Shown piece by piece: positions 1-62,003 of a stretch of DNA of 64,000 bases (position 1 is its first letter; each line of letters starts with the position of its first letter). Below the pieces are notes generated by a model, which ran no database searches, was not told the DNA's origin, and saw only the letters and a list, made by a program, of their open reading frames with translations. The stretch covers positions 558,001 to 622,000 of the forward strand of contig NC_020191.1 in the NCBI RefSeq assembly GCF_000315915.1. Reading direction: 5' to 3'. This stretch comes from Henningerozyma blattae CBS 6284. Taxonomy: Eukaryota > Ascomycota > Saccharomycetes > Saccharomycetales > Saccharomycetaceae. Made by a program: the position numbers and the translations under genes.

Positions 1-3000
1 GGCAAAAATTCATAAGACTTAGAGGTGGACCCAGTAAAATGAGAATGTCTTCTTGGTTTATTTGACTGTTGATATCTTGCATTCGAGATATTTGAATTAG
101 GGATCATATTTGAACTCCTATTACCAACCCCACTTGTGTAACTCATATTTGAAATTTTACTGGTATTCATATTTGAATACATACCCGTATTTTCATTCCA
201 ATTATTATTACCATTGTATTGATAATTAGAATTGAATGAACCATTCGGTTCAATGTTGTAGCTGTTATTACTTTGATAAAATGGATTCCTAGAATTATTA
301 TTGTAACTATTATTGTAAGTATTGTAATTACTGTTCATGTTGTTGAAAGTGTTGCTATTCATATTGTTATTGATGGAGTTAATATTGAGATTATCGTTTA
401 TATTGTTGATCATATTGTTGTTCACAAGATTATCAAAATTGTTATTATCAAGATTATTAAACGAGTTACTAACACGCATATTGTTATACATGTTTCCATT
501 CATATTATTGGAGTTCATGTTTCTCATGTTATACCTAGGATTTCTTAAATTGTTATTCATTATTAAAGTTCTGCTAGTTTTTTTAATTGGAGAATCATTC
601 ATATATTCGAACGTATTAGAGTTGTAACAGGGAGTGTTATTGGGGGGCATACTAATATTAAAATTATTATTGTTCACTTCATTATTTTCAACTTCGATTT
701 CAGATTCAGGGGAATTATAAACCATTTCATTTGGATCCTTGTTTATGTATTCAGGTTCCATGTAGTATGTATTTCGAGTATTATACGGTGGAGATACATT
801 AGAAATGTTACTAGTTTCATATGAAAGAGAGTCTGTATTATTTATGTTATTGATTGAATTTTCATTAAATGGATTTTTATTATTGTTATAATTTTGATTT
901 GAGATATGGGCATTATTAGTACTAGTAATACATGTGGTACTATAACTGTTAACATTGTTGTAGTTATTCATATTAGTAAATGTATTTGGGCTACATTTAC
1001 TTAAGGCATGATAAGAGTGTCGTTGTGGAAATGATGCAGGTCTTGAACTATTATTATTATTTGAATTGCCATCTGGGGATCCATTTGGTGAGTTAGTTCT
1101 ATTAGAATTTGAATTTATTTTTACTAGAGAAGAATTCTGAGTAAATGCAGGATTATTGTTTTTTTTATCAATACCAAAGGATAACTCTGAAGTCGGGTTA
1201 GCTTTTATGTTATTTCTATTGAATTTGGAACTTGTAATTGAATTAGAATATAAATCCGAAGTTGAATTAAAATTAGTTTTCCCCGTATTATGTAATTTCG
1301 AATAAACGATCTTTTTATCTACATCTTTAAAAGTGGGATAAATTGTTTGTGAGTTCGATAACTTGTATGAATTTACTGAATAAGGGTTAACTAAATCAGG
1401 TGCAGACTGAGTGGATGAGTGATTCATATATGTGAATGTTTCAGGATCGTCAGATAAATATTTAATAGGCTTATTTGTTTCTACTTGTTGCTTTTTAGGA
1501 GATGATGTTGAAGGTAAGTTTGAGGTTGAACTTGAATAATGTGAATATCTTTTCAAATTTCTTTTTAACTTTGATGGAGAAACCTTAACATCATCATCAT
1601 TACAAATATTTAAAATTGACACTAACAGATCATTAATTTTCTCACCTACATATGGTAAAGACCATGAAAAAACATCCATAAAATCAGGTAATAGATAAGG
1701 ATGAGGAGATTTTTCAAACTGATTAATATTTAGAGTGTCATTTTCGATCTTTAATATAGCGGCTTTATTATCAAAAGAATCCAAATAATTTGGGGCACTA
1801 AAAATCGTTAGCATACTTGGGAAATCATATTCTTTTGTATTCTTATACATTCTATAGCCTAGATCTTGCGCTTCATGTGCTCTAATGATTGATAATAAAT
1901 TATTTTTCTTCAAGAACTCACATACAGCTTTATAAGTGAAGCAAACTGAACAACCTCTTGATTCATTTGGAACGAAAAAAATATCTCCATCAGCAGTAAT
2001 TTCACCATTTGTATCGATTGATTCAATGGTAGTGATGTTCAAAGAAGAGTCTTGCATGTTAGTTGTATCTACAGTTGTATCGTTATTTATTCTTGAATTG
2101 TCGTTTTCGTTTGAATTAGAATTATTAGCATCATTTTCTTCATCATCTTCATCATCAGTTGGAGCATCATCATAGTCTTCAGTTGGGTCAGACCAAACTA
2201 AATCACATAATAACCCGCTTGACGGAATCTCAACGAATCTATTAATGTTATTGATATCATCGAGATAATTCAAATCTGGACCTATACCACCATGAACACA
2301 AAAATATTTTTCATTTACCACAGCGGCAATAGGTAAATGATTAAATGATTTACAACATAAATCATATACGTTTGGATCATCATTTTGATTTCCAGGAATA
2401 GTTGAATTACGATTATTATTATTAGTGGTAGCATTAGTAGTATTTGTTGTATTTGCATTTAAATTTGTTTTATATTTATAATTCATTTCATTTTTAAAAG
2501 TAAAGAAGCTTGTTAAATGAGCAGATTCGTGATTACCTCTTAATAGGTAAAAATTATTTGGGAAATTTAATTTTAAAACATACAAATAAACTAAAACTTC
2601 GATGGAAAAATAGCCACGATCCACATAATCACCCAAGAATAAATATGTAAAATCTTCGAAATTAAAATCATTGATTTCAAATAATTTTAAAAGATCGAAA
2701 AATTGGCCATGAATATCTCCACAAATAATGATTTTATCCATTAAATCATCTGCACTATTCAAATCTTGCTCTACAGTAGTATCCACGGATTGCAGATCCA
2801 ATGTTTGATTGTTTTTATTTGATGTATTAATCTTTAAAAGATTGGGTTCAGTTTCTAATAAAGAGATCAATTGATTCAAGATAATTTTTAATTGATCATC
2901 AGATAATTTTCCTTGTTGCATGAAATGATTTTTAATAACATCTGGTCTAGGTAAATTTGAATTATTAAAATCAAAAATGTCTTCATTTTTCAAAATAGTA

Positions 3001-3203
3001 TTATTAATTAAAGGTACTGAGGTAATAGGTCTTGAATCAGTTTTGATCTTTCTACCATCTGGAAGAGTATAAATGTTTGATCTGATTGTGTTTTTTTTAG
3101 AATCAATCATTGTAGGTACTGATTGACTAGTGACGATTTTTAATTTTTCTTTATCTTTATCCTTTTGAAATAAGGAAAAAGAAGTAGTACGTCTATGCGG
3201 CAT
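1..3203 (-). CDS. CNA1: Calcineurin catalytic subunit A-like phosphatase, long Asn-rich tail (3' end outside window)
   Basis: Ser/Thr protein phosphatase of the calcineurin (PP2B) family, expected to act with calcineurin B in calcium signalling. The ATG is at 3203-3201 and the frame stays open to base 1, giving at least 1067 residues against about 550-600 in S. cerevisiae. Metal and catalytic motifs are intact: GDIHGQ (about 162-167), GDYVDRG (191-197), RGNHES (222-227), FCVHGG (301-306) and RAHEAQ (about 440). The calcineurin-B-binding helix follows (DVFSWSLPYVGEK, about 505-520). After it I see no calmodulin-binding or autoinhibitory segment, only Ser/Asn-rich sequence for over 500 residues. 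Two low-complexity inserts also interrupt the phosphatase core. TSR2 lies upstream on the opposite strand, as for S. cerevisiae CNA1. Family is certain; CNA1 rather than a diverged extra paralogue rests on synteny. Confidence 0.88.
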   Translation of the reverse strand, partial: MPHRRTTSFSLFQKDKDKEKLKIVTSQSVPTMIDSKKNTIRSNIYTLPDGRKIKTDSRPITSVPLINNTILKNEDIFDFNNSNLPRPDVIKNHFMQQGKLSDDQLKIILNQLISLLETEPNLLKINTSNKNNQTLDLQSVDTTVEQDLNSADDLMDKIIICGDIHGQFFDLLKLFEINDFNFEDFTYLFLGDYVDRGYFSIEVLVYLYVLKLNFPNNFYLLRGNHESAHLTSFFTFKNEMNYKYKTNLNANTTNTTNATTNNNNRNSTIPGNQNDDPNVYDLCCKSFNHLPIAAVVNEKYFCVHGGIGPDLNYLDDINNINRFVEIPSSGLLCDLVWSDPTEDYDDAPTDDEDDEENDANNSNSNENDNSRINNDTTVDTTNMQDSSLNITTIESIDTNGEITADGDIFFVPNESRGCSVCFTYKAVCEFLKKNNLLSIIRAHEAQDLGYRMYKNTKEYDFPSMLTIFSAPNYLDSFDNKAAILKIENDTLNINQFEKSPHPYLLPDFMDVFSWSLPYVGEKINDLLVSILNICNDDDVKVSPSKLKRNLKRYSHYSSSTSNLPSTSSPKKQQVETNKPIKYLSDDPETFTYMNHSSTQSAPDLVNPYSVNSYKLSNSQTIYPTFKDVDKKIVYSKLHNTGKTNFNSTSDLYSNSITSSKFNRNNIKANPTSELSFGIDKKNNNPAFTQNSSLVKINSNSNRTNSPNGSPDGNSNNNNSSRPASFPQRHSYHALSKCSPNTFTNMNNYNNVNSYSTTCITSTNNAHISNQNYNNNKNPFNENSINNINNTDSLSYETSNISNVSPPYNTRNTYYMEPEYINKDPNEMVYNSPESEIEVENNEVNNNNFNISMPPNNTPCYNSNTFEYMNDSPIKKTSRTLIMNNNLRNPRYNMRNMNSNNMNGNMYNNMRVSNSFNNLDNNNFDNLVNNNMINNINDNLNINSINNNMNSNTFNNMNSNYNTYNNSYNNNSRNPFYQSNNSYNIEPNGSFNSNYQYNGNNNWNENTGMYSNMNTSKISNMSYTSGVGNRSSNMIPNSNISNARYQQSNKPRRHSHFTGSTSKSYEFL

Positions 3204-4575: not shown

Positions 4576-5217
4576 ATGAACAATTCGCAATTCGATGTTA
4601 GTGATTTTGTAGAGGCTTCAAAGGGCAAGACTTCATTGAAATTTCAAGATGCTAAACAGCAAGGTAAATTTGAATTAGGTGTTACCATGATGATATATAA
4701 ATGGGAAGCATTGGATATTGCTGTGGAAAATCAATGGGGTGGTCTTGAATCTAGTGAAAAGAGAGATTGGCTTAATGGTGTGGTTATAGAGGCATTTATG
4801 AATGAGAAAATCATTGATGTAGAATATATTGAAGAAATACTTTTAAATGCCATGATTGATGAATTTGACGTCAATGTGGAAGATGACTCAGCTTTACCAA
4901 TTGCAGCAGGTATTATTGAATTATACAAACAATGTGATCGAATGGATTATGCCACCATTGATGATTTATATTCCAAGTATCTGATAAAACAAGAACAGAA
5001 AAAAAATTCTCCTACTTCTCGTGCTAATATCCATATCAACAATGATCCATTAAATCCTGATATATCTTCATCTGAAGAAGAGAGTGAAAATGAGTTAGAA
5101 CCAGAAGATATGGATGTCGATATGGAAGATAGTAATGATTATAAACCTCCTGCACCAGTAGTAGATGATGATGGGTTCGAATTAGTTCAAAAGAAGGGGA
5201 AAGGCAGGAGACATTAG
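4576..5217 (+). CDS. TSR2: Tsr2, chaperone of ribosomal protein eS26 / 20S pre-rRNA processing factor
   Basis: 213 residues, close to the S. cerevisiae length of about 205. The Tsr2 family escorts Rps26 to the nucleus and prevents its aggregation, which is needed for 20S pre-rRNA cleavage in late 40S maturation. The sequence shows the conserved block around LGVTMMIYKWEAL followed by the family's WGG motif (residues 54-56). The C-terminus (about 150-195) is highly acidic, as expected for the segment that shields eS26, and the protein ends in a short basic tail. The ATG at 4576 is preceded by an A-rich stretch, a good yeast start context. Calcineurin A upstream and DIF1 downstream match the S. 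cerevisiae YLR433-YLR437 order; ECM30 is missing from between. Confidence 0.95.
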   Translation: MNNSQFDVSDFVEASKGKTSLKFQDAKQQGKFELGVTMMIYKWEALDIAVENQWGGLESSEKRDWLNGVVIEAFMNEKIIDVEYIEEILLNAMIDEFDVNVEDDSALPIAAGIIELYKQCDRMDYATIDDLYSKYLIKQEQKKNSPTSRANIHINNDPLNPDISSSEEESENELEPEDMDVDMEDSNDYKPPAPVVDDDGFELVQKKGKGRRH

Positions 5218-23645: not shown

Positions 23646-24149
23646 CTATAACATTTCTCTTACCACTGCTTCTCGGGGGAAATCGTCATCTGTGGGGTTT
23701 TTAATGATGGAAACGTTTTGGAATTCTTGGTTTTTGAAATACGCCACTGCGTAACTGATAGCAGAGATTGTGAGGCCGATGGCGACGACAATCAAACTGG
23801 TGGCTTTCAAAATGATGGAACACCATTGGACGGTGGCCATTGCTATGTAGAAGATGCATCTGAAGCCATTTGTTTGGAAATGTTTGATGAAGGCGATGAA
23901 ATTATCACTCAGAGGACATATTTTCAACAGAAAGGGGACTTCTACAAAGAGAATGATGAAACTTTGTATTATGGAGACGATCCCGAATGCGATGACCGGG
24001 TTGACATGGAACAGGTTTGCGATCCCCAGGGCCACACACAGAAGGATGTTGATGTAGCCGAACCATTGGCCGTAGAGACTGAAGTTGAAACTTTTCAAAC
24101 CACGGACAATGCCGTTGATATTAAGGAATTCTTGTAGTGCCACACCCAT
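23646..24149 (-). CDS. TVP18: Tvp18, Golgi membrane protein of Tlg2 vesicles
   Basis: 167 residues from the ATG at 24149, exactly the S. cerevisiae length; a 16-codon in-frame extension upstream is rejected on that basis. Tvp18 is a conserved integral membrane protein of late Golgi vesicles of uncertain biochemical role. It has four hydrophobic spans (about 28-50, 55-75, 92-112, 118-140). Highly conserved segments include SFNFSLYGQW, ALGIANLFHV, PFLLKICPLSDNFI and the C-terminal NIIKNPTDDDFP, ending in VVREML. It converges on MOT3. Confidence 0.96.
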   Translation of the reverse strand: MGVALQEFLNINGIVRGLKSFNFSLYGQWFGYINILLCVALGIANLFHVNPVIAFGIVSIIQSFIILFVEVPFLLKICPLSDNFIAFIKHFQTNGFRCIFYIAMATVQWCSIILKATSLIVVAIGLTISAISYAVAYFKNQEFQNVSIIKNPTDDDFPREAVVREML

Positions 24150-24400
24150 TTGTACGCGGAGAGTGTGTGGGATGAAAATGGAAATAAGATTTTGCAAAGA
24201 AAAAAATAGTAGGAGTAAACAATAAGATGTATCGAGTATTTAATATCGAAGGTAGCGATGGCAATAAGATAGGCTAACGATTCTTTTTTTTATTTTTATG
24301 TTTATTTTAATAACGTTTCCCTATGAAAAACAAGATTACATTTTTGAGTATTTTAGATTGACCGAAACGGGGGCCTACGCGAAACGAAAAGGAGATTTCT

Positions 24401-24427
24401 TTGGCCTTTGGCCTTTGGCCTTTGGCC
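24401..24427 (+). repeat. TTTGGCC heptamer repeat
   Basis: Four near-tandem TTTGGCC units beside the TVP18 promoter. Confidence 0.9.
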
Positions 24428-24694
24428 CTGTCCTTTGTCCTCTCTATCACAAAAAAGAGCGAGAGCCGTGCACGTGAAGGCTCGCGCGAGAAAAAATAAT
24501 ATTTAAGCGTTAGCGTATCATCGAGGAGATAGAAAAAAACATGGCGGGTTTATTTGAAAAGGAAGATCCCTTGTTTGCTACTCGAGTACCCAAGAACAAG
24601 AAAGCTGTGCTATTGTTACTGTGATATTGAAAGTATGTATGATTGTATTTGATTTCAGACTATTATTATTGTTATTGCGATTGTTTTATTGATT

Positions 24695-24744
24695 GCACGC
24701 CACTGCACGCCACTGCACGCCACTGCACGCCACTGCACGCCACT
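24695..24744 (+). repeat. Five perfect copies of GCACGCCACT
   Basis: A perfect 10-base unit repeated five times. Perfection implies recent expansion. Confidence 0.97.
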
Positions 24745-25744
24745 GGCATTGTCTGGCTGCCGATCTGTTGATGCACATAATGTGATGGTATGTGATAGCA
24801 TACATCACATTGCTGTCCCACTGCAATGACTCTCCATGACTCTCCCCTATCCCTATGCAAATCTACAATGGCTGCTGGCAGCGATTCCAGACTCGCCTGC
24901 CATTGCATTGTTATAGCCATCCAGACCATTGCAGAGGCCGATACGCCCGACGCAGCCGTTTCTTTTTCCGCCTCTCCCTGCTTCTCCTTGTTCCGGAGAA
25001 AACCGGAGTTCCGTTTTCCCACTGCCAGTTCCGCCCTCGGATATCACCAGACCGTCGCGGACCACAACGGGCCGATGGGCTGCTCAGAAACCGCGCAGGG
25101 CCCCTGGCCAGCCGCTCAACACTCCGGGTTCCTGAAAAAAACCGGCAGACAGGCACGCCGGCAATGCAGGCACGCAAACTCGCGGAAAACACGGAAAACA
25201 CGGAAATGCACGGCCCGTGCGGCCCGTGTGTACCAGCCGAGTCCCGGGCGTGCGGCGATGTTCTGGGAAATTGTTCTGGCACTGCCTGTTTGGGCGCGGT
25301 CGTTCCCGACGAGACAGCAAGTGAAATGAGCAGTGGGATTGAAAATGGAAACCGAAGTGAAAAATTTCACCGGGGCTGTGCCGAGCAGGCAGAAGAGCAA
25401 CAGGGAGAAACAGAGACACGGGACGGGCAGAAACACGGAGAAACACAGAGAAACACAGACAGAGCAAGAGGCTGTTTGTTTGTCGTGGCGTGTGGTGTCT
25501 CTTTGATGCAGCCCTGTTTCTTTTGTGTGGTTGTGTGGTTGTGTGGTTGCGTTGTTGCGTTGCAGCGTTGCAGCGTTGCATTGGCACTGGCTTTGTGTCT
25601 GCTTCAGCGTAGCGTTGTTTCCTTACTTCCATTCTCACTTGCATTTGTTTATGCTGCTGCTGCTCTGCCTTGTGCTTTCTGCCTTGTGCTTTCTACCTCT
25701 TACCACTTCGTTGCACTGCTACCACCTCTACCTGTTGCAAAACC

Positions 25745-25806
25745 TCCTTCGCTACTACTCCTTCGCTACGACTCCTTCGCTACGACTCCTTCGCTACTAC
25801 TCCTTC
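25745..25806 (+). repeat. 15-base CTCCTTCGCTACKAC-type repeat
   Basis: About four near-identical 15-base units in the pyrimidine-rich part of the region upstream of the IXR1-like gene. Confidence 0.9.
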
Positions 25807-25868
25807 TACCTACAACTGTTGATATACATGGCATTTTATTGACACTATCAATATTTGTTTCCGCTATT

Positions 25869-25910
25869 GTCTCCTCTCGTCTCCTCTCGTCTCCTCTCGT
25901 CTCCTCTCTC
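25869..25910 (+). repeat. GTCTCCTCTC decamer repeat
   Basis: Four tandem 10-base units, the last slightly extended, all pyrimidine except one G per unit. Confidence 0.92.
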
Positions 25911-27079
25911 GTCTTCTCTATCGTTTTCATCACTAGTTCTGTGTTTTTTCTACTGTTGCCTAGCCCATTTTCTCTACATCAACAAACAAAAACTGTGGAA
26001 TCATTTCTTCTAACAAACACTACTATCTTTTTTATTACAAGAATTTCTTCACCTTTGTTACCATTTGACGATTCCTGCTGCTTTATTTGTTGTCATTACT
26101 ACTGCTACTACTAACATTACTATTACTGTTACTAGAACTATTACCAGAACTATTTCTATTACCAATAGAGTATACACAACATTACAAGTATCGCTACACT
26201 AGCCTGCACCAGACCACACTATATCGATTGTATTACACCTCATACCAGAATAATACAACTATACATTCTGCTGTACCTATCCTGGCTGCCAAGACAACGT
26301 TTACCACTGCGACTCCCACTGCGACTCCGACTCCGACTCCCACAGTTATCAAGACTCACGCTCTCCATAGCTCACATTCTACAAGTTTTTATCGTCACAA
26401 AATACAAACTTGACCTGCTAAACTACAATTTAAGCATAATCTGAAGCACATAAGCCCTGTAGCTTCTCACTCTTTTTTTTTAGCTTGTAATTTTTCAAAC
26501 AAAAAAAATTCCACACGCATTAGAAAAAAGAAAAAAAAATTTTCCCGTATTTTTTCTTTTTTTTTTTTCGTTTCTTTTTCGCCGCGCATTTTATTTTTTT
26601 TCTTCTACAAATATCGCTCCGTGCTTCGCCCTTCCGTGCTTCACGCTTCGCTTCGTACTTCGTACTTCGTGTTTTTTTTCGACTATCAATTTTTCAAACT
26701 GATTTGCCAAAATATATTCAGTCTTACTAATTTGAGTATCATTACCGCTAATAGAAGCTACCATTCTCTATACCCCCCTCGAGTATCTATTGACACTACC
26801 ACTTTAGTATTCGATCTCATTAAGTCCTTTGATCTTTAAACCTTTTTTGCCTTTAACTTTACCTTTACCTTTGCCTCTGCTTTTGCTCTTGCCTTTGCTT
26901 TTCACTTTCCTATCCAGGCTGTCCCCCCCCTCCCCTCCCTTAATTAATAATTAACTTTTGCACTTTTTTGCTTTTGCACTTTTTTGCTTTCATTTTCATA
27001 CGCTTCCTGTCATTTTAATTTTATCATTTTCTTTGCCTTTAATCCTGCCTTTTTCTTAATCTTTTTGTATTTCATAAAA

Positions 27080-27121
27080 ATGTTACCCACTATCCAAGTA
27101 CCAAACGTTAACGGCAATACC

Positions 27122-27159
<38 letters not shown>

Positions 27160-28573
27160 CTCCCCCAAAAATGAAGACTCAAACACAATCAACCTCCTAA
27201 ATAACCCTGCCGACCAAACCCTACAGTATCAGCAGATTGATCACCAAGACAATCAATTCAGAGAATTCTCTCAACCGCCTCAACCTCCTCAACAGCAACA
27301 GATCCCCCCACAACAAACCTTCTCTCATTTCCAAACCCAACCTTTTGTGTCCCAATACCAACAGCCTCCTCAGCAACAACAAAACATTTATTTCCAGCAA
27401 TCTTCGCCTCAAACAAACGCCCAACCGTCATTACAACAGGTGCTACAATCACAATCCACTCAACAACAACAACAACAACAACCTCAACAACTACACCAAC
27501 TACATCTACAACAACAGTACTTGTCCCATCAAAACAACTCCTCGCAAAACAACAACTCACAAGCCACTGCACAATCCCTGCCTTCTCAAAACATAAGTCT
27601 ACTGGGCCAAAACATAAATAACAATTCCAATAACAATACTAACCCTACCTCCAATTCAAACCATACTAACTCAATCTCTCAAGATTATAATTATATACAA
27701 AACTCAAACCCTGCTACTCAACCAATCAACCAGCAACAACTTTCAGAAATGATGTACAATTCATTCCTTTCCCATCTAAGTCAAAAACAAGTCTCCAGTG
27801 CCATTGGGTCGGCATTAACAAATGCTACCCATTTGAACCCTGCTGCTACTACTGTCTCTTCTGCTGCCGCCTCTTCTCTTTCTTCAAACACAAATGCCTC
27901 CACCTCCAACTCCACTTCTTCTTTCTTAAACCCCCCAGGCCAAAGATATTTCCATGCAAACATGAATGTTTCTCCAACTCTAATGGAAGCCACCCATCCA
28001 GTAAACATCCAAGCCACCAGCCCAATCCATTTGCAAAACTCCCATTCTTCTCCAAACCCACCTAAGAAGATGTCCACTACCCAGAGTAGAATTGAAAAAA
28101 GAAAACAATTGAAAAAACAAGGTCCAAAGAGACCTTCTTCTGCTTACTTCCTTTTCTCAATGTCTATTAGAAGTGATTTATTAGAAAAATACCCACAAGC
28201 AAAAGTTCCTGAATTATCCAAATTAGCTTCTGCTAGATGGAAAGAATTAACTGATGATGAAAAAAAACCATTCTACGACGAATTTAGAACAAACTGGGAA
28301 AAATACAGAGTCTTGAGATCCGAATACGAAAAAACTTTACCTCCAAAGAGACCTTCTGGTCCATTCATCCAATTCACTCAAGAAATCAGACCCATCGTCG
28401 TTAAAGAAAACCCTGACAAGAACTTGATTGAAATCACTAAATTGATTGGTGAAAGATGGCGTCAATTGGATCCTTCCAAAAAAGCTGAATACACTGAAGA
28501 ATACCGTAAGAGATTAAAGGAATGGGAAAGTTATTATCCAGAAGATGGTAATGATTTAGAAATGAAAAAATAA
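27080..28573 (+). CDS. IXR1: Ixr1-like tandem HMG-box DNA-binding protein with Gln/Asn-rich N-terminus
   Basis: 497 residues from the first ATG at 27080; the frame extends upstream but without ATG. Ixr1 regulates hypoxic genes and dNTP supply and binds platinated DNA. Poly-Asn (about 14-30) and Gln-rich sequence (about 45-260) precede a Ser/Ala-rich stretch. HMG box 1 starts at about 348 (GPKRPSSAYFLFSMSIR) and box 2 at about 421 (PPKRPSGPFIQFTQEIRP). Both boxes match S. cerevisiae Ixr1 far better than Abf2, and there is no mitochondrial presequence. Yet the neighbours (TVP18 before, YMR074C after) are those of ABF2 (YMR072W). ABF2 and IXR1 are known as whole-genome-duplication paralogues, so this locus kept, or took on, the IXR1 type. 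Confidence 0.9.
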
Positions 28574-47665: not shown

Positions 47666-50600
47666 CTAGATCCAGCCCAGTTCTGAGTCGTCGAGCAATT
47701 GCCAACCGGTTTGCACAAACGATTCCATTACATTTTTCGAGTTATCATCCTTTGTGTTGGCTTGAGTCATTGAAATGATCGAGTTTCGTTTCTTCAACGA
47801 TAAGGAGGTATCATTATATTTACCAAACAGTTTTTCCGTAATTGAGCTATTAGTATTTGAAAGATTACTCAGGCTTTTGTTACGTGAACGTGTGGTACTC
47901 GTATTGGAATTACTCAAGTAATCAACATCGGTAGATAATCTTCTTGTTCTTTTCGAGATATGATGAGCAAACATACGGAAAGGTTTGATCATATTTAGTA
48001 AACTTGTGATTTGAACTACTTCATTCATCGAATTTGATAATTTCACTACCAAATCTTGTGGCTTATTCAACGAATTCATATTACTATTAGTATCAGGTTT
48101 TTTATTAATCACTTTAGGTGTGGTCATGACAAGACTAATCAAGAGTGTGGGCAAATGTTTTATAGATTCCGTAATGTTAAATATCTCATGTAACATAGAC
48201 ACGGTGAATGGATAAATGATACCACGGGAATGTTCAAACATTACATTCAAATCTTCTTGCTGTTGTTTGAAACCCAACAATTTTTTATAAAATCCCTCTC
48301 CATTCACACTTGCATTACTGGAATTACTTTTATTGCTTTTAATGGAAGCATTGCTACTTAAATTCATATTCATATGAGACATGCTATTGGAGATAAGAGG
48401 TGGACGATGGCTGAAATCAATACTATTGGTCGGATTTAATCTCATCATCCAAGTTAAAATTTGTAAAATTAAGGATATGATACTAGATAAAGATTCTGTT
48501 AAAGTCACGGCTTTTTCGAAATCTAATTCAATCAATTCTTGAGTATTCATATCTTTTAATCTTAACAAAATGGTTGAGAATTTTTTCTTCTTTAATAATA
48601 ATACATTCATTAACCCAGACACACAATAGATTGAATTTTGTGAACATGTCTTTTCCATAGTTAGTTCATTTCTTTCTTGAAGTTCCTTATCTTGTGATTC
48701 TAAAAATGATATACGTAGATTATGCTGAGATAATAGTCTAATAGTAGAACGGTTCAAGGCCAATTCAGTTAAAGTCTCACCCAGTTTTAAAGATTGTAAA
48801 ATGTTCTTTAATCGCAATGCATTCTCATCAACACACCATTTTAATACCAACTCTTCATTAAATAATACATTTTCATCATCATCATCTTCTTCATCATCAT
48901 CACCATCTTGTTCTTCCTCTGCATTTCCATTATTCCCATTACGCAGCTCTCTTTGTCTTTGGTAATTCCATTTAGGATTACTAAACCATTTATCAATTAA
49001 CCCAGTTATTGGAATATTTAATAATTTAGGTGTACCGTATGAGCAACTTTGTAATGAATCAAATATTATCAATAGTATATATAACCGTTTAAATAAAATT
49101 CGGTAATCTAATCCACAATAGCTTTTAATAGGCCTATCAATACTTACGTTACTGTTTTTATCTTTATCAGCATCCGTTTCAATTTCATTTACATTTTCAT
49201 TATTATTTGCATTTTCATTTTCCTCAATAGGTGGTTCAATATTGGTTTCATCTAATTCATCATCTAAATCAGGATCATCTGGCAATAAAAGATGTTTATA
49301 AACTTTAAATTCATGGAAAACTGTAACCGACATCCCTAATACAAAGGAATTATCACACCCAACAAATGCCAAAATGTAATTTAAAATGGAAAATGTAGAT
49401 AAATAAATGATTTTAATCTTATATGAAATAATATTTCTATGTTCTCTCATCTTTGGATGTAAATCAACAAGATGTTGAAAACATTGATTTAATTCAGAAG
49501 TAAATTCCATACGACGATATTGAGTATCAGGTGAATCATTTATTGAATTATGAGATGATCTACGTTCAGTTTCATTATTATTAGATAAGGTAGGATCTGC
49601 ATTAACATTGCTATTATTACTATTCGAAATGGTATCAACTTCAGAGCTAGATTCTTCATTTTCAAAAATATTACTAGATTGGTTATTCCTCTTTAATGAT
49701 GTTTTAAATAATAAAGTTAAAGAATTTTTAAAACAATATATTACAGCATTATTAATCTCATGAATCTCAGATATTGGTTGATTGTTAATCAATAAAATCT
49801 CATTCATTAGAGTTTCTTTATTTAATGGAATAATTGGGAATCCCATATGTACAAATTCATAATAATTATCAATTAGTTCGATATCTGATGAACTGGTATA
49901 ATTATTTGCACTTGGATTTAGTGGATAACTTTGAACTTGATTTAGTGCACTAGTAGCGTTGACATTATTACCATTATTAGTGGAAGTAATATTATCACTG
50001 CTATTATGATTATTATTATGAGAGGGTCCGCTAATATTAACCGTAGTAGTTGTAGTTGGGGAAGTATTAGAAATGCCATGATGAATATGCAAACCATCAG
50101 GTGAACCAGCACCTTCAGATACAGATATGGCAGATGAAACAGATGGTGCTCTCATTGGACTTGAGAATGACATTTTTTTATTTGGATTTAAATTTGTGAT
50201 ATTTTGATGAGGTAAATTAGAATTAAATCTAGCTTGTTCAGAATTTGTTCTTGAACGTTTTCTTGTGCTTAGAGCTGATGGAACTAAGGGGCTTGTTACA
50301 GACAATTGATTTGATGAATTATTGGAATTGGAAGCATTACCGATATCGTTTTTTTCAGTTAATTTAGAAAAGTCAGATGTATTAGATGTTGTATTTGATA
50401 ATGGATGATATGCTGATTGTGATAATGGAATAGGTAACGAAGGTTGATGATTTGGGGTATCTGGCGATAATGTATCACTTACAACAGAACTTGTTCTAGA
50501 ACGGAATCCAGTATAAATATTGGAAGGTGGCAATGAATGGGTATGACCATCATTGCTTGTTATTGATGGATGTATTTGGTTGGATGGTATTGGTTGGGGC

Positions 50601-51184
50601 TGTTGGGACTGTTGGGACTGTTGGGGTTGTTGGGGTTGTTGGGGTTGTTGAGGTTGTGATGATTGAGGTTGAGTTTGAATAAATTGTTGTTGCATAAACT
50701 GTTGTGGTGAAAATTGTTGTTGTTGCTTTTGTTGTTGTTGAGTAAATTGGGAATATGGATATAATAATTGATTTGTTGTATTATTAATTTTCAGTTCATT
50801 TGTATAAGTAGATTGTATTGAAGCATTTGAATTCGATCTTGATTTTTTATCTATTGGTGAAGATTTTAAAAATGACCATTGTTGTTGTTGAGCTATATTT
50901 GCAGGAAATAAAGGATTGCTTGGTTGAGTAGTATTATAATTTAATAACAATTGATCTTGCTGTGATGATGTTAAACTTGTAACGCTATGCCTATTCAATG
51001 ACTGAGCATCACTTGTTGAGGAATCTACAGAATTTCTACGTTGATTCTGATATTCATGATAAGGTACTTTCCAAAATTGTTGTGAACCTAGATTTGCCAT
51101 AGTTAATTGGCTATTACCGCCACTTAATCTATTTGGATTTAGGTTATTTGATGTTATTGTAGTGGTAGTGGTAGTGGCTGTAGC

Positions 51185-51256
<72 letters not shown>

Positions 51257-52141
51257 TACAGAAATTTGTCCAGGAGTGTTATTCGTGGAAGTATTGCTAA
51301 TAGAATTTTGATTGTTAAAATAACCAAGAGAATTCATTATATTTGTATTAGTCGTGGCACTAGTAGGAGTGGAATGTGTACTTATTGGATTTGATTGAGT
51401 TGGTGTTCCAGATATATTCTTCAAAGTATTATTAGTTGTAGTTGTATTTGAAGTAGTAGTTACATTGGTATCAGTAGTATTTGCTGATTGCGTATTAGAA
51501 GGATCTTGTTTATTATTAGTGTTGTTAGTAGTACTATTATTTAGATATCGAGTGATGGGAGGTAATAGTACAGAAGAATTCATGTTTACATTTGTTGCAT
51601 TACCTTTTGTATTAGGCAATACACTTTCACTTGAAGTTGAATTTTTTTTCTCAATTGGGATTACCGATGGAGTACTTGCATTTGAATTTGAATTTGCGTT
51701 TGCACTTATATTATTATTATTTTTGTTAACTTTATTATAGCCTTTTACAGGACCTCTTTTTAATTGAACTCTTTGATATGTACATTTTTCACCATTTTTA
51801 ATACAATTATAACAAGCTCCATTTGCATAAGAAGTGGGAGCCAAAGAATTAGAAGGATCTACATTACTTGAACATTTTACTTTCTTCTTTCTACATTGAT
51901 CACACGCCCTTGAAACTTTAGTTCTCTTTTTAGGAATTGTGGAATGTTGCTGAGTAGTATCAGGAAGTACTGGCTGTGCAGTGACTGTTGTAGTTGTCAC
52001 AGAAGTAGTTGCAGTGGATTGTGGCATTATGGAAGGAGAATTTGTAGATCTTGGAGAAGTATCTATACCAGTGTTTGTTTGGTTTCCCACAGAAGATGAG
52101 GTCATTGGCGTGGGGGCATTGGAAGTACCAACTAGGGACAT
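47666..52141 (-). CDS. RGT1: Rgt1-like Zn2Cys6 glucose-responsive transcription factor
   Basis: 1491 residues against 1170 in S. cerevisiae. Rgt1 represses hexose transporter genes with Mth1/Std1 and Ssn6-Tup1 when glucose is absent. The zinc cluster lies at residues 80-120 (RACDQCRKKKVKC to CYNCIKNGEKC), followed by the Rgt1/Eds1-specific QLKRGPVKGYNK linker. The loop between the two halves of the cluster is 19 residues, longer than the usual 5-12. Asn-, Thr- and Gln-rich sequence fills most of about 140-770, including a 20-plus Asn run and a Gln/Pro region (about 460-525). The fungal TF middle homology region and acidic blocks follow, and the end LLDDSELGW is typical of Rgt1. UGP1 downstream matches YKL035W/YKL038W; EDS1 is the alternative paralogue. 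Confidence 0.92.
50580..50760 (-). repeat. Gln/Pro-coding low-complexity tract in RGT1
   Basis: Tandem TTGTTGGGG and GACTGTTGG units on the + strand encode QQP and QQS repeats on the minus strand. Confidence 0.85.
51188..51257 (-). repeat. (AAT)n poly-Asn tract in RGT1
   Basis: More than 20 uninterrupted AAT codons, a trinucleotide microsatellite prone to length change. Confidence 0.95.
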
Positions 52142-57595: not shown

Positions 57596-59176
57596 ATGAG
57601 TGTTCAAATCTTTGGAGATCAGGTTGTGGAAGAACGTGGTGAGAATGCCCGTATGTCAGCTTTCGTCGGTGCGATTGCCGTTGCTGATCTTGTGAAAAGC
57701 ACCTTGGGACCTAAAGGTATGGATAAATTATTACAAAGTGCCAGTAGTGATCAAAGTATTGTTACCAACGATGGTGCCACTATATTGAAGTCTATCCCTC
57801 TGGATAATCCTGCAGCTAAAGTACTTGTGAATCTTTCTAAAGTGCAAGACGATGAAATTGGGGATGGTACTACTAGTGTCACAGTATTGAGTGGTGAATT
57901 ATTAAGAGAAGCTGAAAAATTGATTGAACAATCCAAAATCCATCCACAGACTGTTATCGAAGGGTACCGTATAGCGAGCCGTGCTGCATTGAAGGCATTG
58001 GAAGAAGTTGCTGTGGATAACTCTAAGGATCCTGTGAAGTTCCGGGATGATCTAGTAAAGATTGCCAAGACCACTCTTTCATCCAAGATTTTGTCGCAAG
58101 ATAAGGAACAATTTGCTGAATTGGCCACTGAGGCTATCTTGAGATTAAAAGGTAATACGAATTTGGAACATATTCAAATCATCAAGATTCTTGGTGGTAA
58201 TTTGGAAGATTCCTTTTTGGATGATGGGTTTTTATTGGCAAAGAAGTTTGGTACCAACCAACCAAAGAGAGTGGAGAATGCCAAGATCTTAATTGCCAAT
58301 ACTGGGCTAGATAGTGATAAAGTCAAGATATTTGGTACCAAATTCAAGAGCAATTCAACCAGTGGTATAGCCCAATTGGAAAGAGCTGAACGTGAAAGAA
58401 TGAAGGGGAAAGTGGAAAAGATTTCCAAGTTTGGCATCAATACGTTTGTGAATCGTCAATTGATTTACGATTATCCTGAGCAATTGTTTAGTGATAAGGG
58501 GATCAATTCTGTGGAACATGCAGATTTCGAAGGTGTAGAAAGATTAGCCCTGGCGACAGGTGGTGATGTTGTTTCCACATTCGATGACCCAGAGCATTGC
58601 CGTTTGGGTGAATGTGATTTGATAGAAGAAATTGTTATTGGTGAAGAAACATTTTTAAGATTTTCAGGTTGTAAAGTACGTGAAGCTTGTAGTATTGTCT
58701 TACGTGGTGCTACATTGCAAGTATTGGATGAAGCTGAAAGATCTTTACACGATGCATTGGGGGTATTGTCCCAAACCACACGTGAACCCCGTACTGTTCT
58801 TGGTGGTGGCTGTGCCGAAATGGTGATGTCACGTGCCGTCGACACTGCTGCACAAAGCACTGATGGTAAACGTGCCATGGCTGTGGAAGCATTTGCACGT
58901 GCCTTACGCCAGTTACCCACCATATTAGCAGATAATGCAGGTCTTGATAGTGGAGAGTTGGTGACTCGACTCCGTGCAGCTGCTTATGGAGGTCTAAGTT
59001 CTGCAGGTCTTGATTTGACCCGTGGAGAATTGGGTGATATGAGAGAGTTGGGTATTGTAGAGAGTTTTACTTTAAAGAGAGCTGTGGTTCGAGCAGCTGC
59101 AGAGGCCAGCGAGGTGTTATTACGAGTGGATCATGTTGTTCGTGCCCGTCCTCGTACCGCAGGACGTGCACAATAA
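57596..59176 (+). CDS. CCT2: Chaperonin CCT/TRiC subunit beta
   Basis: 526 residues, one shorter than S. cerevisiae Cct2. Part of the hetero-octameric double ring that folds actin, tubulin and WD-repeat proteins in the cytosol with ATP. Equatorial-domain nucleotide motifs are intact: [11 protein letters not shown] (36-46), VTNDGATIL (about 56-64) and GDGTTSV (about 89-95), with GGGCAEM and the C-terminal DNAGLDS late in the protein. The N-terminal [10 protein letters not shown] and the segment [20 protein letters not shown] are subunit-beta specific. The last 30 residues are Arg/Ala-rich. Codon use is biased, fitting abundant expression. Confidence 0.98.
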
Positions 59177-59801
59177 TGACAACAGCTACTACAACAACAG
59201 CAGCAACAATAATAACAATAATAACAATAATAATAATAGGCGTCCTTTTTTTGAAAGAATAGACCTTCGCCTTCACTTTCCTCTATGCACATTACTAACA
59301 TTACTCATAATATTATTTCACATCTATGTATACTTGTCACAACTGATATAGCCGGTAAATAGGCCTATGTAGTAAACTTTTCCGCAGATCCGATCGGCCG
59401 ATTAAATTACGCCATACGGTGACGCACGGCGCAAGCAGTACGAGCAGTTCTGAGCTGCCGGCCCGTAACAATACATAGTGGACAGCACATATGCCAGCGC
59501 AACTATTTCTAATCTGTGGAAACTGTTGCCCCTTATGCTTTACGCTTTATGCTCGCGCCGTACGGCTCGAGTGGTGCGGCTCGAGCTCGGCCGGCCCGGC
59601 AAAAGTCTCCCGATCCAGCGCCGTGCCGTATATAAAAGAGCGCCGTGCCTGGCCCCGCCACACCGTACCCGCCAATCAAGCTATGCTCTATGCTACTTTA
59701 TCTTTATTTTTTCTATTTTCTATTTTCTATTTTCAATTTTCAATTTTAACTTTCAATTTAAATCTTTTTTCTCTTTACGCTACACTATACACTCCTATAT
59801 T
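59177..59801. other. Intergenic region CCT2/XBP1
   Basis: 625 bases. An AAC/AAT microsatellite (about 59180-59240) follows CCT2. The part at 59380-59670 is GC-rich. A pyrimidine-rich leader (59695-59765, repeated CTATTTT and CAATTTT) precedes the XBP1 ATG. A frame open from 59478 joins XBP1 but encodes low-complexity leader sequence. Confidence 0.65.
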
Positions 59802-61706
59802 ATGCCACGCAATACTTCACCCCGCACACGTGCCCCCGCACGTGGCCCCGCAAATATTTCCTCAAACCGGAACCCTGCATTAGACCCTGAAGATCGTCAT
59901 CCGGGAAAAGACCCCACCACACGCTACCCACGCTACCCGGTCACACGTCATCCAGCCACATGCCCCAGACTTTCTGATAGCCCATTGGATGATTTCCAAC
60001 GTTTGTGTTATGCCACAGGCGGTCCCGGGCCAGACCCGATCCCGGTTTCGTACCATTCTGCAGCCGCCGAACAATTTCTTCATCCGGCATACTTGGGGAA
60101 TGTTACTTCGGCAACCCCGGAATTGCCTCCTGGTACCAAACCACATACGATTGAATGTTTCGAGTTTCGTCTACCAGATATTTCTGCAACCCCAAACGCT
60201 CCCTCGGCTGGGTTGCTGAAAGCCGCTGTGCATCGTAACCCTGAGGGGCCTCCAAAGACTAGTGAAAATACTGTTTCCAAGAACCAACAGTTTAAATTGG
60301 CCAAGCTAAATCACTCGTTGCATTCTGAGGAACATTTTATTAACCCAAACAATTGTGTCATTTGGGATAGGAATTCCGGCCATGTGTTTTTAACTGGTAT
60401 TTGGAGATTGTATCAAGATGTGATGAATGCCTTAGTGACGCTTGATCGTGATGGTATGGATTCCAGCTCGGCACAAGATATATGTGCCAGGGAATTAACC
60501 CATGTATTGGAAAAGACCTTTTACGACCCATCATTGGCTGTGGAAGATCCGCCACGTAAAAGAACAAAACGTGCTGATTCATTACCTTCGTCGTCGTCGT
60601 CGTCGTCATCGGCCTCTTACTCTCCGACAAGCACAGCCAAGTATACAGACTTCCATTGGAACTTAATCCCACATGAACTCAAAGATACTCTTGTAGATGG
60701 CTACCGTGCCTTTCTTTGCAGACAATACCCAGAGCATGCCGAAGAATTACGCCACGTCCCCTTTGCCAGTCTACTACAACGTATCCGCGGAGGCTACATC
60801 AAGATCCAGGGCACTTGGTTGCCCTATGAAGTTTCGCGCCAGATCTGTACACGGTTCTGTTTCCCGATCCGCCACTTGCTGGTTCCTCTGTTTGGACCAC
60901 AGTTCCCTGCTGCTTGTGAAGCTTGTTTAAGAAGCCATGGTAGTCGTTCTTCGATTCCAACGTCTACCTCCATCTCAAATGCTGCTCCACATTTGACTCT
61001 ACATTCTTCAGTCCCTGCCAAGAAACTGGTCAAGAAAAGACCCCGCCACACATCTTTGCCACAGACCCCACCACACGCCCCACCATCAAATGTGGCCCCA
61101 CCACTTGCCACTTCTCCAATTGCCATTTCACCACAACAACAATTACCTCCGTTAAGTTCACTTGTCTCTTTACCAGCCGATGATCAACCTACACTCCACA
61201 CGCTTTGTACTTTGGCCTCATTTTATACGACCCGAGGCCATCGTTATTCTTATCCGGCTGGGTTAACCGCCCATGGTCCTTCGGGAACCACCCACGGGCT
61301 GGAGCCCAATAGCCATTATTCGCCACAGCCACCATTCACACAAGCTTTAGCTAATTATTCTTATGGCCCATTAAAGAGCAATACCACTATCAATACTACT
61401 AATACCGCCTCTCTCGATACGTCATCTTCAATAGCCCCCACCACAGCTACAGCCACACTTTCTCGTTCTCCTTCTCATTCCTATTTGACCCCGCCACATT
61501 CTTCTCCTGCACTTTTGACCCCACCACGACTATCACCCACAACAAACGTGACTCCACCACTTCTTTCTCCATCATATATGTCACCAACAAGATTATCTCC
61601 AGCCGCCCATCTGTCTCCAGCTCACGTGCCCTCGTCGCCACCTTCCCGTTTTGGCATGAAATTTATAGATTCAAACCATTTCACTTCATATACTCATACC
61701 CATTGA
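59802..61706 (+). CDS. XBP1: Xbp1-like APSES-related transcriptional repressor
   Basis: 634 residues from the ATG at 59802, against 647 in S. cerevisiae; an upstream in-frame ATG at 59478 would add 108 residues of leader-derived sequence and is rejected. Xbp1 is a stress- and quiescence-induced repressor binding CTCGA-type sites, related to Swi4/Mbp1. The split DNA-binding region is clear: SKNQQFKLAKLNHSL to NPNNCVIW and VFLTGIWRLYQDVM (about 160-205), then YTDFHWNLIP and RIRGGYIKIQGTWLPYEVSR to FCFPIRHLLVPLFGP (about 280-366). SPLDDFQRL near the N-terminus and LASFYTTRGHRYSYP late in the protein are also shared. The tails are Pro/Ser/Thr-rich with SP and TPP repeats. CCT2 next door is not its neighbour in S. 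cerevisiae. Confidence 0.94.
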   Translation: MPRNTSPRTRAPARGPANISSNRNPALDPEDRHPGKDPTTRYPRYPVTRHPATCPRLSDSPLDDFQRLCYATGGPGPDPIPVSYHSAAAEQFLHPAYLGNVTSATPELPPGTKPHTIECFEFRLPDISATPNAPSAGLLKAAVHRNPEGPPKTSENTVSKNQQFKLAKLNHSLHSEEHFINPNNCVIWDRNSGHVFLTGIWRLYQDVMNALVTLDRDGMDSSSAQDICARELTHVLEKTFYDPSLAVEDPPRKRTKRADSLPSSSSSSSSASYSPTSTAKYTDFHWNLIPHELKDTLVDGYRAFLCRQYPEHAEELRHVPFASLLQRIRGGYIKIQGTWLPYEVSRQICTRFCFPIRHLLVPLFGPQFPAACEACLRSHGSRSSIPTSTSISNAAPHLTLHSSVPAKKLVKKRPRHTSLPQTPPHAPPSNVAPPLATSPIAISPQQQLPPLSSLVSLPADDQPTLHTLCTLASFYTTRGHRYSYPAGLTAHGPSGTTHGLEPNSHYSPQPPFTQALANYSYGPLKSNTTINTTNTASLDTSSSIAPTTATATLSRSPSHSYLTPPHSSPALLTPPRLSPTTNVTPPLLSPSYMSPTRLSPAAHLSPAHVPSSPPSRFGMKFIDSNHFTSYTHTH

Positions 61707-62003
61707 CTTTGATCTTGACTTTCACTTTGACTTTGATTTTGACTTTGACATTAGCATTAACTTTAATATTCATATTCATATTCATACTCAGATTCATGTT
61801 ATAATTATGCATATTCATATTCACACACATTTTTACCCCTTCCTTTTTTTTTTATTCAAAACAGTTGTCTATTTTATTCTATTTTATGTTTTTTTTTTTA
61901 ATTGCACATTTATTTTTCTTTTTTTCTGAAAATTCTATGTATTATATATATACATATATATATATTATTTTAGATAACTTACTCTACATTATTATTTTAT
62001 ATT

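Follow-up and report, generated by a model that had tools for sequence, protein, structure and literature searches.

A calcineurin A-like gene of the yeast Henningerozyma blattae in which neither a calmodulin-binding helix nor an autoinhibitory domain is recognisable and the tail is long and Asn-rich

In mammals, the splice form CNAbeta1 is described as the same protein as CNAbeta2 through the calmodulin-binding domain (CBD), beyond which it carries an LAVP inhibitor and palmitoylated cysteines; the new C-terminal motif takes over from the autoinhibitory domain (AID) and the swapped C-terminus gives a new localisation (PMC8523714). In Trypanosoma cruzi, TcCaNA2 is held by its authors to be calmodulin-independent (PMC3907409). 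Four other papers describe the elements around which our comparison turns: the autoinhibitory segment (AIS) of calcineurin blocks the LxVP pocket (PMC6506691) and is listed between the calmodulin site and the AID (PMC11662586); residues NIR330-332, including R332, form a PxIxIT-docking triad, and mutating NIR impairs docking (PMC10163345); Phe356 lines the LxVP pocket (PMC3582496). No description of the gene presented here was found in the open-licence literature searched: PMC6506691 refers to the species for Ptc7 alone, a different phosphatase that is present there as two specialised genes, and PMC4256066 includes the species in its alignments and makes no mention of calcineurin.

The gene lies at the left end of the window, i.e. 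the whole stretch of 64,000 nucleotides that was analysed, which sits on contig C7 of a genome of 14.04 Mb in 10 contigs. Its minus-strand frame starts at 3203, runs for 1067 codons and leaves the window by the left end. The first-pass annotation of the window had seen there a calcineurin A (CnA) whose calmodulin and autoinhibitory tail was apparently replaced by a long Asn-rich one, and had proposed that the 3' end be retrieved. We completed the ORF from the flank beyond the left edge: the frame extends 196 nt further and is closed by TAA after 1132 codons, with the next gene beyond the stop. The gene is intact, a single open frame without internal stop, and its recovered end runs on to TAA and brings no CBD/AID region.

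1..3203, minus strand: calcineurin A-like ORF, residues 1-1067 of 1132 in a continuous frame; the stop and the 65 codons ahead of it fall beyond the window edge
L009:2306-2308 of the flanking locus, outside the window: TAA stop of this ORF
4576..5217, plus strand: TSR2-like neighbour gene (Pfam WGG, PF10273, E 3.9e-29), part of the synteny argument

As to the window itself, a single undetermined base (n) stands at about 4466, where a poly-A run precedes the TSR2-like gene, and the GC content reaches 44–48% at 24001-26000 and 58001-62000, against 23–38% in the remaining 2-kb windows.

The reading that we favour, with a probability of about 0.55, is that this gene is a whole-genome-duplication copy of calcineurin A, encoding what would be a calmodulin-independent phosphatase with altered docking, likely placed by its tail. 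Judged by its core, its calcineurin B (CnB)-binding helix and its nearest relatives, the predicted protein is a calcineurin A and not a PP1 or PP2A phosphatase. The features of this part are as follows.

1869..2735, minus strand: phosphatase domain, residues 157-445 (Pfam PF00149, E 5.3e-29), with the 10 catalytic/metal residues checked all kept
1599..1676, minus strand: CnB-binding helix, residues 510-535, conserved, aligned without gap to human 348-373
2736..2825, minus strand: insert of about 30 residues (about 127-156) directly ahead of the GDIHG motif, from the alignment with human and yeast CnA; borders approximate
2373..2459, minus strand: Asn/Thr-rich insert in the catalytic domain, about residues 249-277, from the alignment; borders approximate
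1980..2147, minus strand: acidic, Asn-rich insert in the catalytic domain, about residues 353-408, from the alignment; borders approximate
1722..1724, minus strand: residue 494, Asn at the position of the PxIxIT-groove Arg332 (human numbering), which is Arg in 26/26 references
1650..1652, minus strand: residue 518, Tyr at the position of the LxVP-pocket Phe356 (human numbering), which is Phe in 26/26 references

Ten positions which we take to be the catalytic and metal residues of calcineurin—D90, H92, D118, D121, R122, N150, H151, H199, R254 and H281 in human numbering—are kept without exception, and DVFSWSLPYVGEK and LLVSILNIC fall within residues 510-534, so that the phosphatase motifs and the CnB helix first read from the window hold good. 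Among the sequences of solved structures, the nearest 25 are calcineurins, unaligned at the three inserts (about residues 127-156, 249-277 and 353-408), and a Foldseek search with the AlphaFold model returned calcineurins at all of ranks 1-36. In this model pLDDT reaches at least 70 for 277/1132 residues, chiefly in the core; it is low in much of the docking region and the CnB helix, and the corresponding region of the paralog used as a control is low as well.

The core has also changed compared to its relatives. In an alignment of 26 references (25 named proteins and a human record, hand-picked from human to yeasts), 151 columns are invariant; the window CnA keeps 133 of them and changes 18, whereas leaving out each reference in turn gives 0–5 changed columns. 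R332N, Y315F, Y159F, W342L and F356Y are among the 18, and for Y159 and Y315 we assume a role in the LxVP pocket. Most of the residues examined in the PxIxIT and LxVP grooves are kept, R332N and F356Y being altered. The idea that changes concentrate in the docking grooves was considered and dropped: with the 8 documented residues, named in PMC10163345 and PMC3582496, 2/8 are changed and the excess is not significant (P = 0.24).

The C-terminal regulatory region was searched with a CBD/AID profile built from 24 named relatives drawn from the hand-picked references. The homologs listed number 262, pooled without duplicates from three lists of the best 120 each; at E < 1e-5 this profile matches 260 of them, the 24 members that built it being counted among the 260. 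The paralog TBLA_0E04600, excluded from the building, reaches 140 bits; the window CnA scores -0.8 bits, which is no match. The second miss of the 262, P0121, is a human record of 620 aa that resembles the engineered chain 9b9g_I. Shorter blocks tested with 15 references agree. The best 17-residue match to the calmodulin-binding core in residues 539-700 was equalled or beaten by 1871/2000 shuffles, and the four AID blocks by 858, 1767, 1782 and 1807 of 2000. A relic of the AID, sought after one pairwise alignment reached that way, is likewise unsupported, its blocks being no better than shuffles. Both halves of the proposed loss, that of the calmodulin-binding helix and that of the autoinhibitory domain, are therefore borne out by the profile and by the shuffles, and it is because neither element is recognisable that we predict calmodulin-independence.

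Such an absence could also come from an artefact, an intron, a frameshift or an assembly error concealing a normal tail, and the window, the sole basis of the first-pass annotation, does end inside the gene. The full gene speaks clearly against it: the frame is open as far as its stop, the next gene lies beyond, the six-frame translation of the 9-kb locus gives no convincing match to the CBD/AID profile (best E = 1.5), and no TACTAAC branch site occurs in the coding sequence. Neither a downstream CBD/AID nor a rescue by an intron or a frameshift, both of which were looked for, was found in these 9 kb; on these observations we reject an intron, a frameshift or a displaced domain, and consider an artefact of any kind as extremely improbable.

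A scan for calmodulin sites, also proposed in the first pass, retained a single weak stretch:

1521..1574, minus strand: basic amphipathic stretch, residues 544-561 (SKLKRNLKRYSHYSSSTS); weak, not matching the calmodulin core of CnA

Calmodulin binding could persist if this stretch were a displaced site, since the windows starting at 544-546 are the only ones in the tail to pass a loose filter of charge and hydrophobic moment. They fail however the stricter filter, which the site of the paralog passes; their hydrophobic anchors are few, and the calmodulin core profile scores best elsewhere, with no convincing match. We thus set residues 544-561 aside as weak, and regard a persisting calmodulin site as very improbable. 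The calmodulin-independent copy remains our preferred reading, with one qualification concerning how the region was lost.

1281..1346, minus strand: probable relic of an eroded autoinhibitory segment, residues 620-641 (TIYPTFKDVDKKIVYSKLHNTG), from block scores and spacing; moderate evidence

Residues 620-641 align, without gap, with what comes directly after the calmodulin core of related proteins (in the paralog, RMYSVLREESDKVQHLKAMNQG); we take this segment to be the AIS. With the block fixed, the score is 29.5, equalled in 0/25,658 background windows and 0/2000 local shuffles, and a further fixed-block test gives 0/200. When all 62 blocks are allowed, the score is reached by 17/1000 local shuffles, 6/300 whole-tail shuffles and 2/22 background proteins. 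Aligned with gaps, the whole CBD-AID region gives no significant score (reached by 65/1000 and 96/400 shuffles), nor does a 43-residue block (344/2000), and the best domain found with the long CBD/AID profile is residues 9-31, non-significant, and not 620-641. In view of the all-block tests, the non-significant gapped alignments and this profile result, we call the relic probable and not certain; it is retained because its position agrees with that in relatives, 85 residues separating it from the CnB helix as compared with 56–101 in the 15 references. Residues 620-641 are then probably the remnant of an eroded AIS. As the AIS sits in the LxVP pocket, and this pocket is changed, both partners of the contact would have drifted.

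This remnant bears on the claim that a tail replaced the regulatory region: the absence of the CBD/AID and the long Asn-rich tail stand, the simple swap probably does not, as the probable relic suggests a decay in place. Given this relic, the regulatory region may have decayed first where it stood, and the Asn-rich extension may have grown afterwards.

The same data could be read differently, the enzyme being still under autoinhibition, though of a new kind: either the acidic insert 353-408, or the AIS-like relic, or part of the tail would fold onto the active site or the LxVP groove until another signal releases the enzyme. The insert does sit within the catalytic domain, the spacing of the relic does resemble that of relatives, and CNAbeta1 offers the precedent of a novel C-terminal motif standing in for the AID (PMC8523714). 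On the other hand the relic contains a proline and has only 5–6/22 identities to each of the four relatives compared, a strict LxVP motif is absent from the whole protein, and the tail lacks the looser form as well. A new autoinhibition thus seems unlikely to us, and the loss of the brake, in a copy independent of calmodulin, remains preferred.

Beyond the relic extends the tail:

1..1280, minus strand: Ser/Asn-rich tail, predicted disordered, residues 642-1067 in the window and up to 1132 outside, from composition and a pLDDT < 50 for 638-1132

From residue 539 onward the protein counts 594 residues, with 148 Asn, 15 Gln, 51 Lys+Arg and 32 Asp+Glu, in agreement with the Ser/Asn-rich tail of more than 500 residues initially reported. 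Asn is not evenly distributed: 7 per 100 residues in 539-638, with a peak in 839-1038 (39 and 37). A stretch of 80 residues with 30 or more Q/N is the threshold for a prion-like Q/N-rich stretch. The tail attains this Q/N count of a prion-like domain (pLDDT < 50), its 80-residue windows showing a maximum of 40 Q/N and 96 of them at least 30. Richness in Asn belongs in part to the genome at large, since 3/49 distinct ORFs of at least 200 aa in the loci examined, some of them clipped at the locus ends, reach 30 Q/N per 80 residues, the calcineurin gene included. Among the 18 distinct ORFs that are 500 aa or longer, the calcineurin tail has the Asn-richest 500-residue stretch, with 28.2% and the next at 20.2%. 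The other strong Q/N ORFs lie at 27080-28573 (plus strand) and 47666-52141 (minus strand) of the window, with 41 and 40 Q/N per 80 residues respectively.

The derivation of the tail from another gene is not supported: the 574-residue tail, searched against the genome that carries it, matched itself alone, and the comparison with the IMP dehydrogenase gene and the 3' part of the other calcineurin gave no tblastn match and, by blastn, four short matches (18–39 bases, E 0.02–0.3) that we attribute to chance. One PxIxIT-like motif is present in the tail, as chance predicts. AlphaFold helices at 608-665 have a low pLDDT and stand where the input alignment puts the CBD/AID of relatives; for this low pLDDT and alignment-driven position they were discarded as evidence. 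Besides, basic-aromatic look-alikes of the pattern R[HY]S[HY] occur at residues 552, 728 and 1052 (KRYSHYSSSTS, QRHSYHALSKCS and RRHSHFTGSTSK; window 1-1550, minus strand). Three copies were seen in 0/1000 tail shuffles, for a pattern picked after being noticed; these stretches could possibly be kinase or adaptor sites.

The genome contains a second CnA, of 609 aa, on another contig (C5); it is 100% identical to TBLA_0E04600 of Henningerozyma (Tetrapisispora) blattae CBS 6284, by which the organism is identified, and it is conventional, which answers the question, raised with the first reading, of a normal calcineurin A elsewhere. In the AlphaFold model of this control, residues 511-609, with the CBD and AID helices, have a block pLDDT of 70–88. 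For calcineurin B there is one close CNB1-like match in the genome, the next-best being 39% identical, and for calcipressin one match.

The locus of the window CnA on C7 reads SEN1 (PF12726), a 468-aa gene presumably Atg23-like, the window CnA, TSR2, a 148-aa gene presumably Dif1-like, and further a class-III aminotransferase (CAR2-like), SEC39 (PF08314) and a BAH-domain gene. On C5 are found a WD40 gene with DUF1899, which we take to be coronin-like, an IMP dehydrogenase, the conventional CnA, a Hid1-family gene and a gene whose start is, we presume, that of NTE1. Set against the gene order of S. cerevisiae as we understand it, the C7 neighbourhood is that of CNA1 and the C5 one matches that of CMP2/IMD4, some single-copy neighbours having been kept on the other side. 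This synteny shared by both loci indicates, as far as gene order can tell, that the two CnA genes are partners of the whole-genome duplication. The IMP dehydrogenase gene beside the conventional CnA appears as two ORFs about 255 nt apart (L019:7658-8248 and L010:4-1026), between which an intron is possible; IMD4 of S. cerevisiae has one intron.

By its sequence the window CnA has evolved fast. Its end branch measures 4.58, against a median of 0.25, in a tree of 36 rows including the window protein, whose program flags this row for its long branch and odd composition. It falls, at a place that is unsure, in a 100/100 clade of 30 budding-yeast CnA rows, the named ones being, as we take them, Saccharomycetaceae and Saccharomycodes ludwigii. 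No long-tailed ortholog appears among the best 120 of 1422 matches.

Such a branch, together with the 18/151 invariant columns changed, would also suit a decaying paralog: under relaxed selection the regulatory region would have eroded and AT-rich codons would have given the Asn tail, with little function left, the C5 copy doing the work. The existence of this conventional copy, and of other Asn-rich ORFs in an AT-rich genome, goes in the same direction. Against it stand the catalytic residues checked, the CnB helix and 133/151 invariant columns, all kept, and the 1132 open codons; nor is the tail a simple microsatellite, its longest pure AAT run being of 4 codons. Decay with little function left is, to our mind, improbable, and we return to the duplicated, calmodulin-independent phosphatase.

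For this enzyme the following scheme may be proposed. The window CnA would pair with the Cnb1 of the genome, and would be either active at resting calcium or controlled solely via the calcium sites of Cnb1 itself. R332N and the changes of the LxVP pocket would narrow or shift its substrates, which might make a brake-less enzyme tolerable, and the Asn-rich tail would set its location or its assembly. The erosion of the regulatory region in place would come first and the growth of the tail afterwards. A bolder version, in which a post-duplication calcineurin A lost calcium-calmodulin control, became constitutive, was re-docked and has its reach set by a condensing Asn-rich tail rather than by calcium, and would be a naturally brake-less fungal calcineurin, is one that we hold only tentatively and think rather doubtful. 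Altogether the initial interpretation is partly supported: the lost brake agrees with the absence of the CBD/AID, and the changes of the docking grooves (R332N, F356Y) had been missed, so that the protein differs from calcineurin by more than a lost brake.

If the favoured reading is true, this would be an exception among fungi, a calcineurin A gene without calmodulin site and AID existing as a separate gene. It would offer a natural test of docking and localisation in a phosphatase deprived of its switch, for which the genome itself supplies a conventional control. Since the duplicated signalling enzyme has apparently been caught while its regulatory region decays, it could also inform on the order in which brake, docking grooves and disordered tail change.

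With the Cna1/Cmp2 type, represented here by TBLA_0E04600, the window CnA shares the phosphatase core, the catalytic residues, the CnB helix and a syntenic duplicate locus; it differs by the absence of the CBD and AID, by the three inserts within or beside the catalytic domain, by the altered docking and by the Asn tail. Mammalian CNAbeta1 is likewise a calcineurin A whose AID is swapped for a different C-terminus (PMC8523714), whereas the window CnA is a separate gene, without calmodulin core and with no LxVP in its tail. TcCaNA2 and the CaNA of CL Brener in Trypanosoma cruzi come close in another respect, as they have the catalytic and CnB domains without CBD/AID (PMC3907409). TcCaNA2, with its 392 aa, leaves no space for a long tail, unlike the window CnA, and belongs to a distant lineage; the loss of the CBD/AID in Trypanosoma cruzi and in the window CnA presumably occurred independently.
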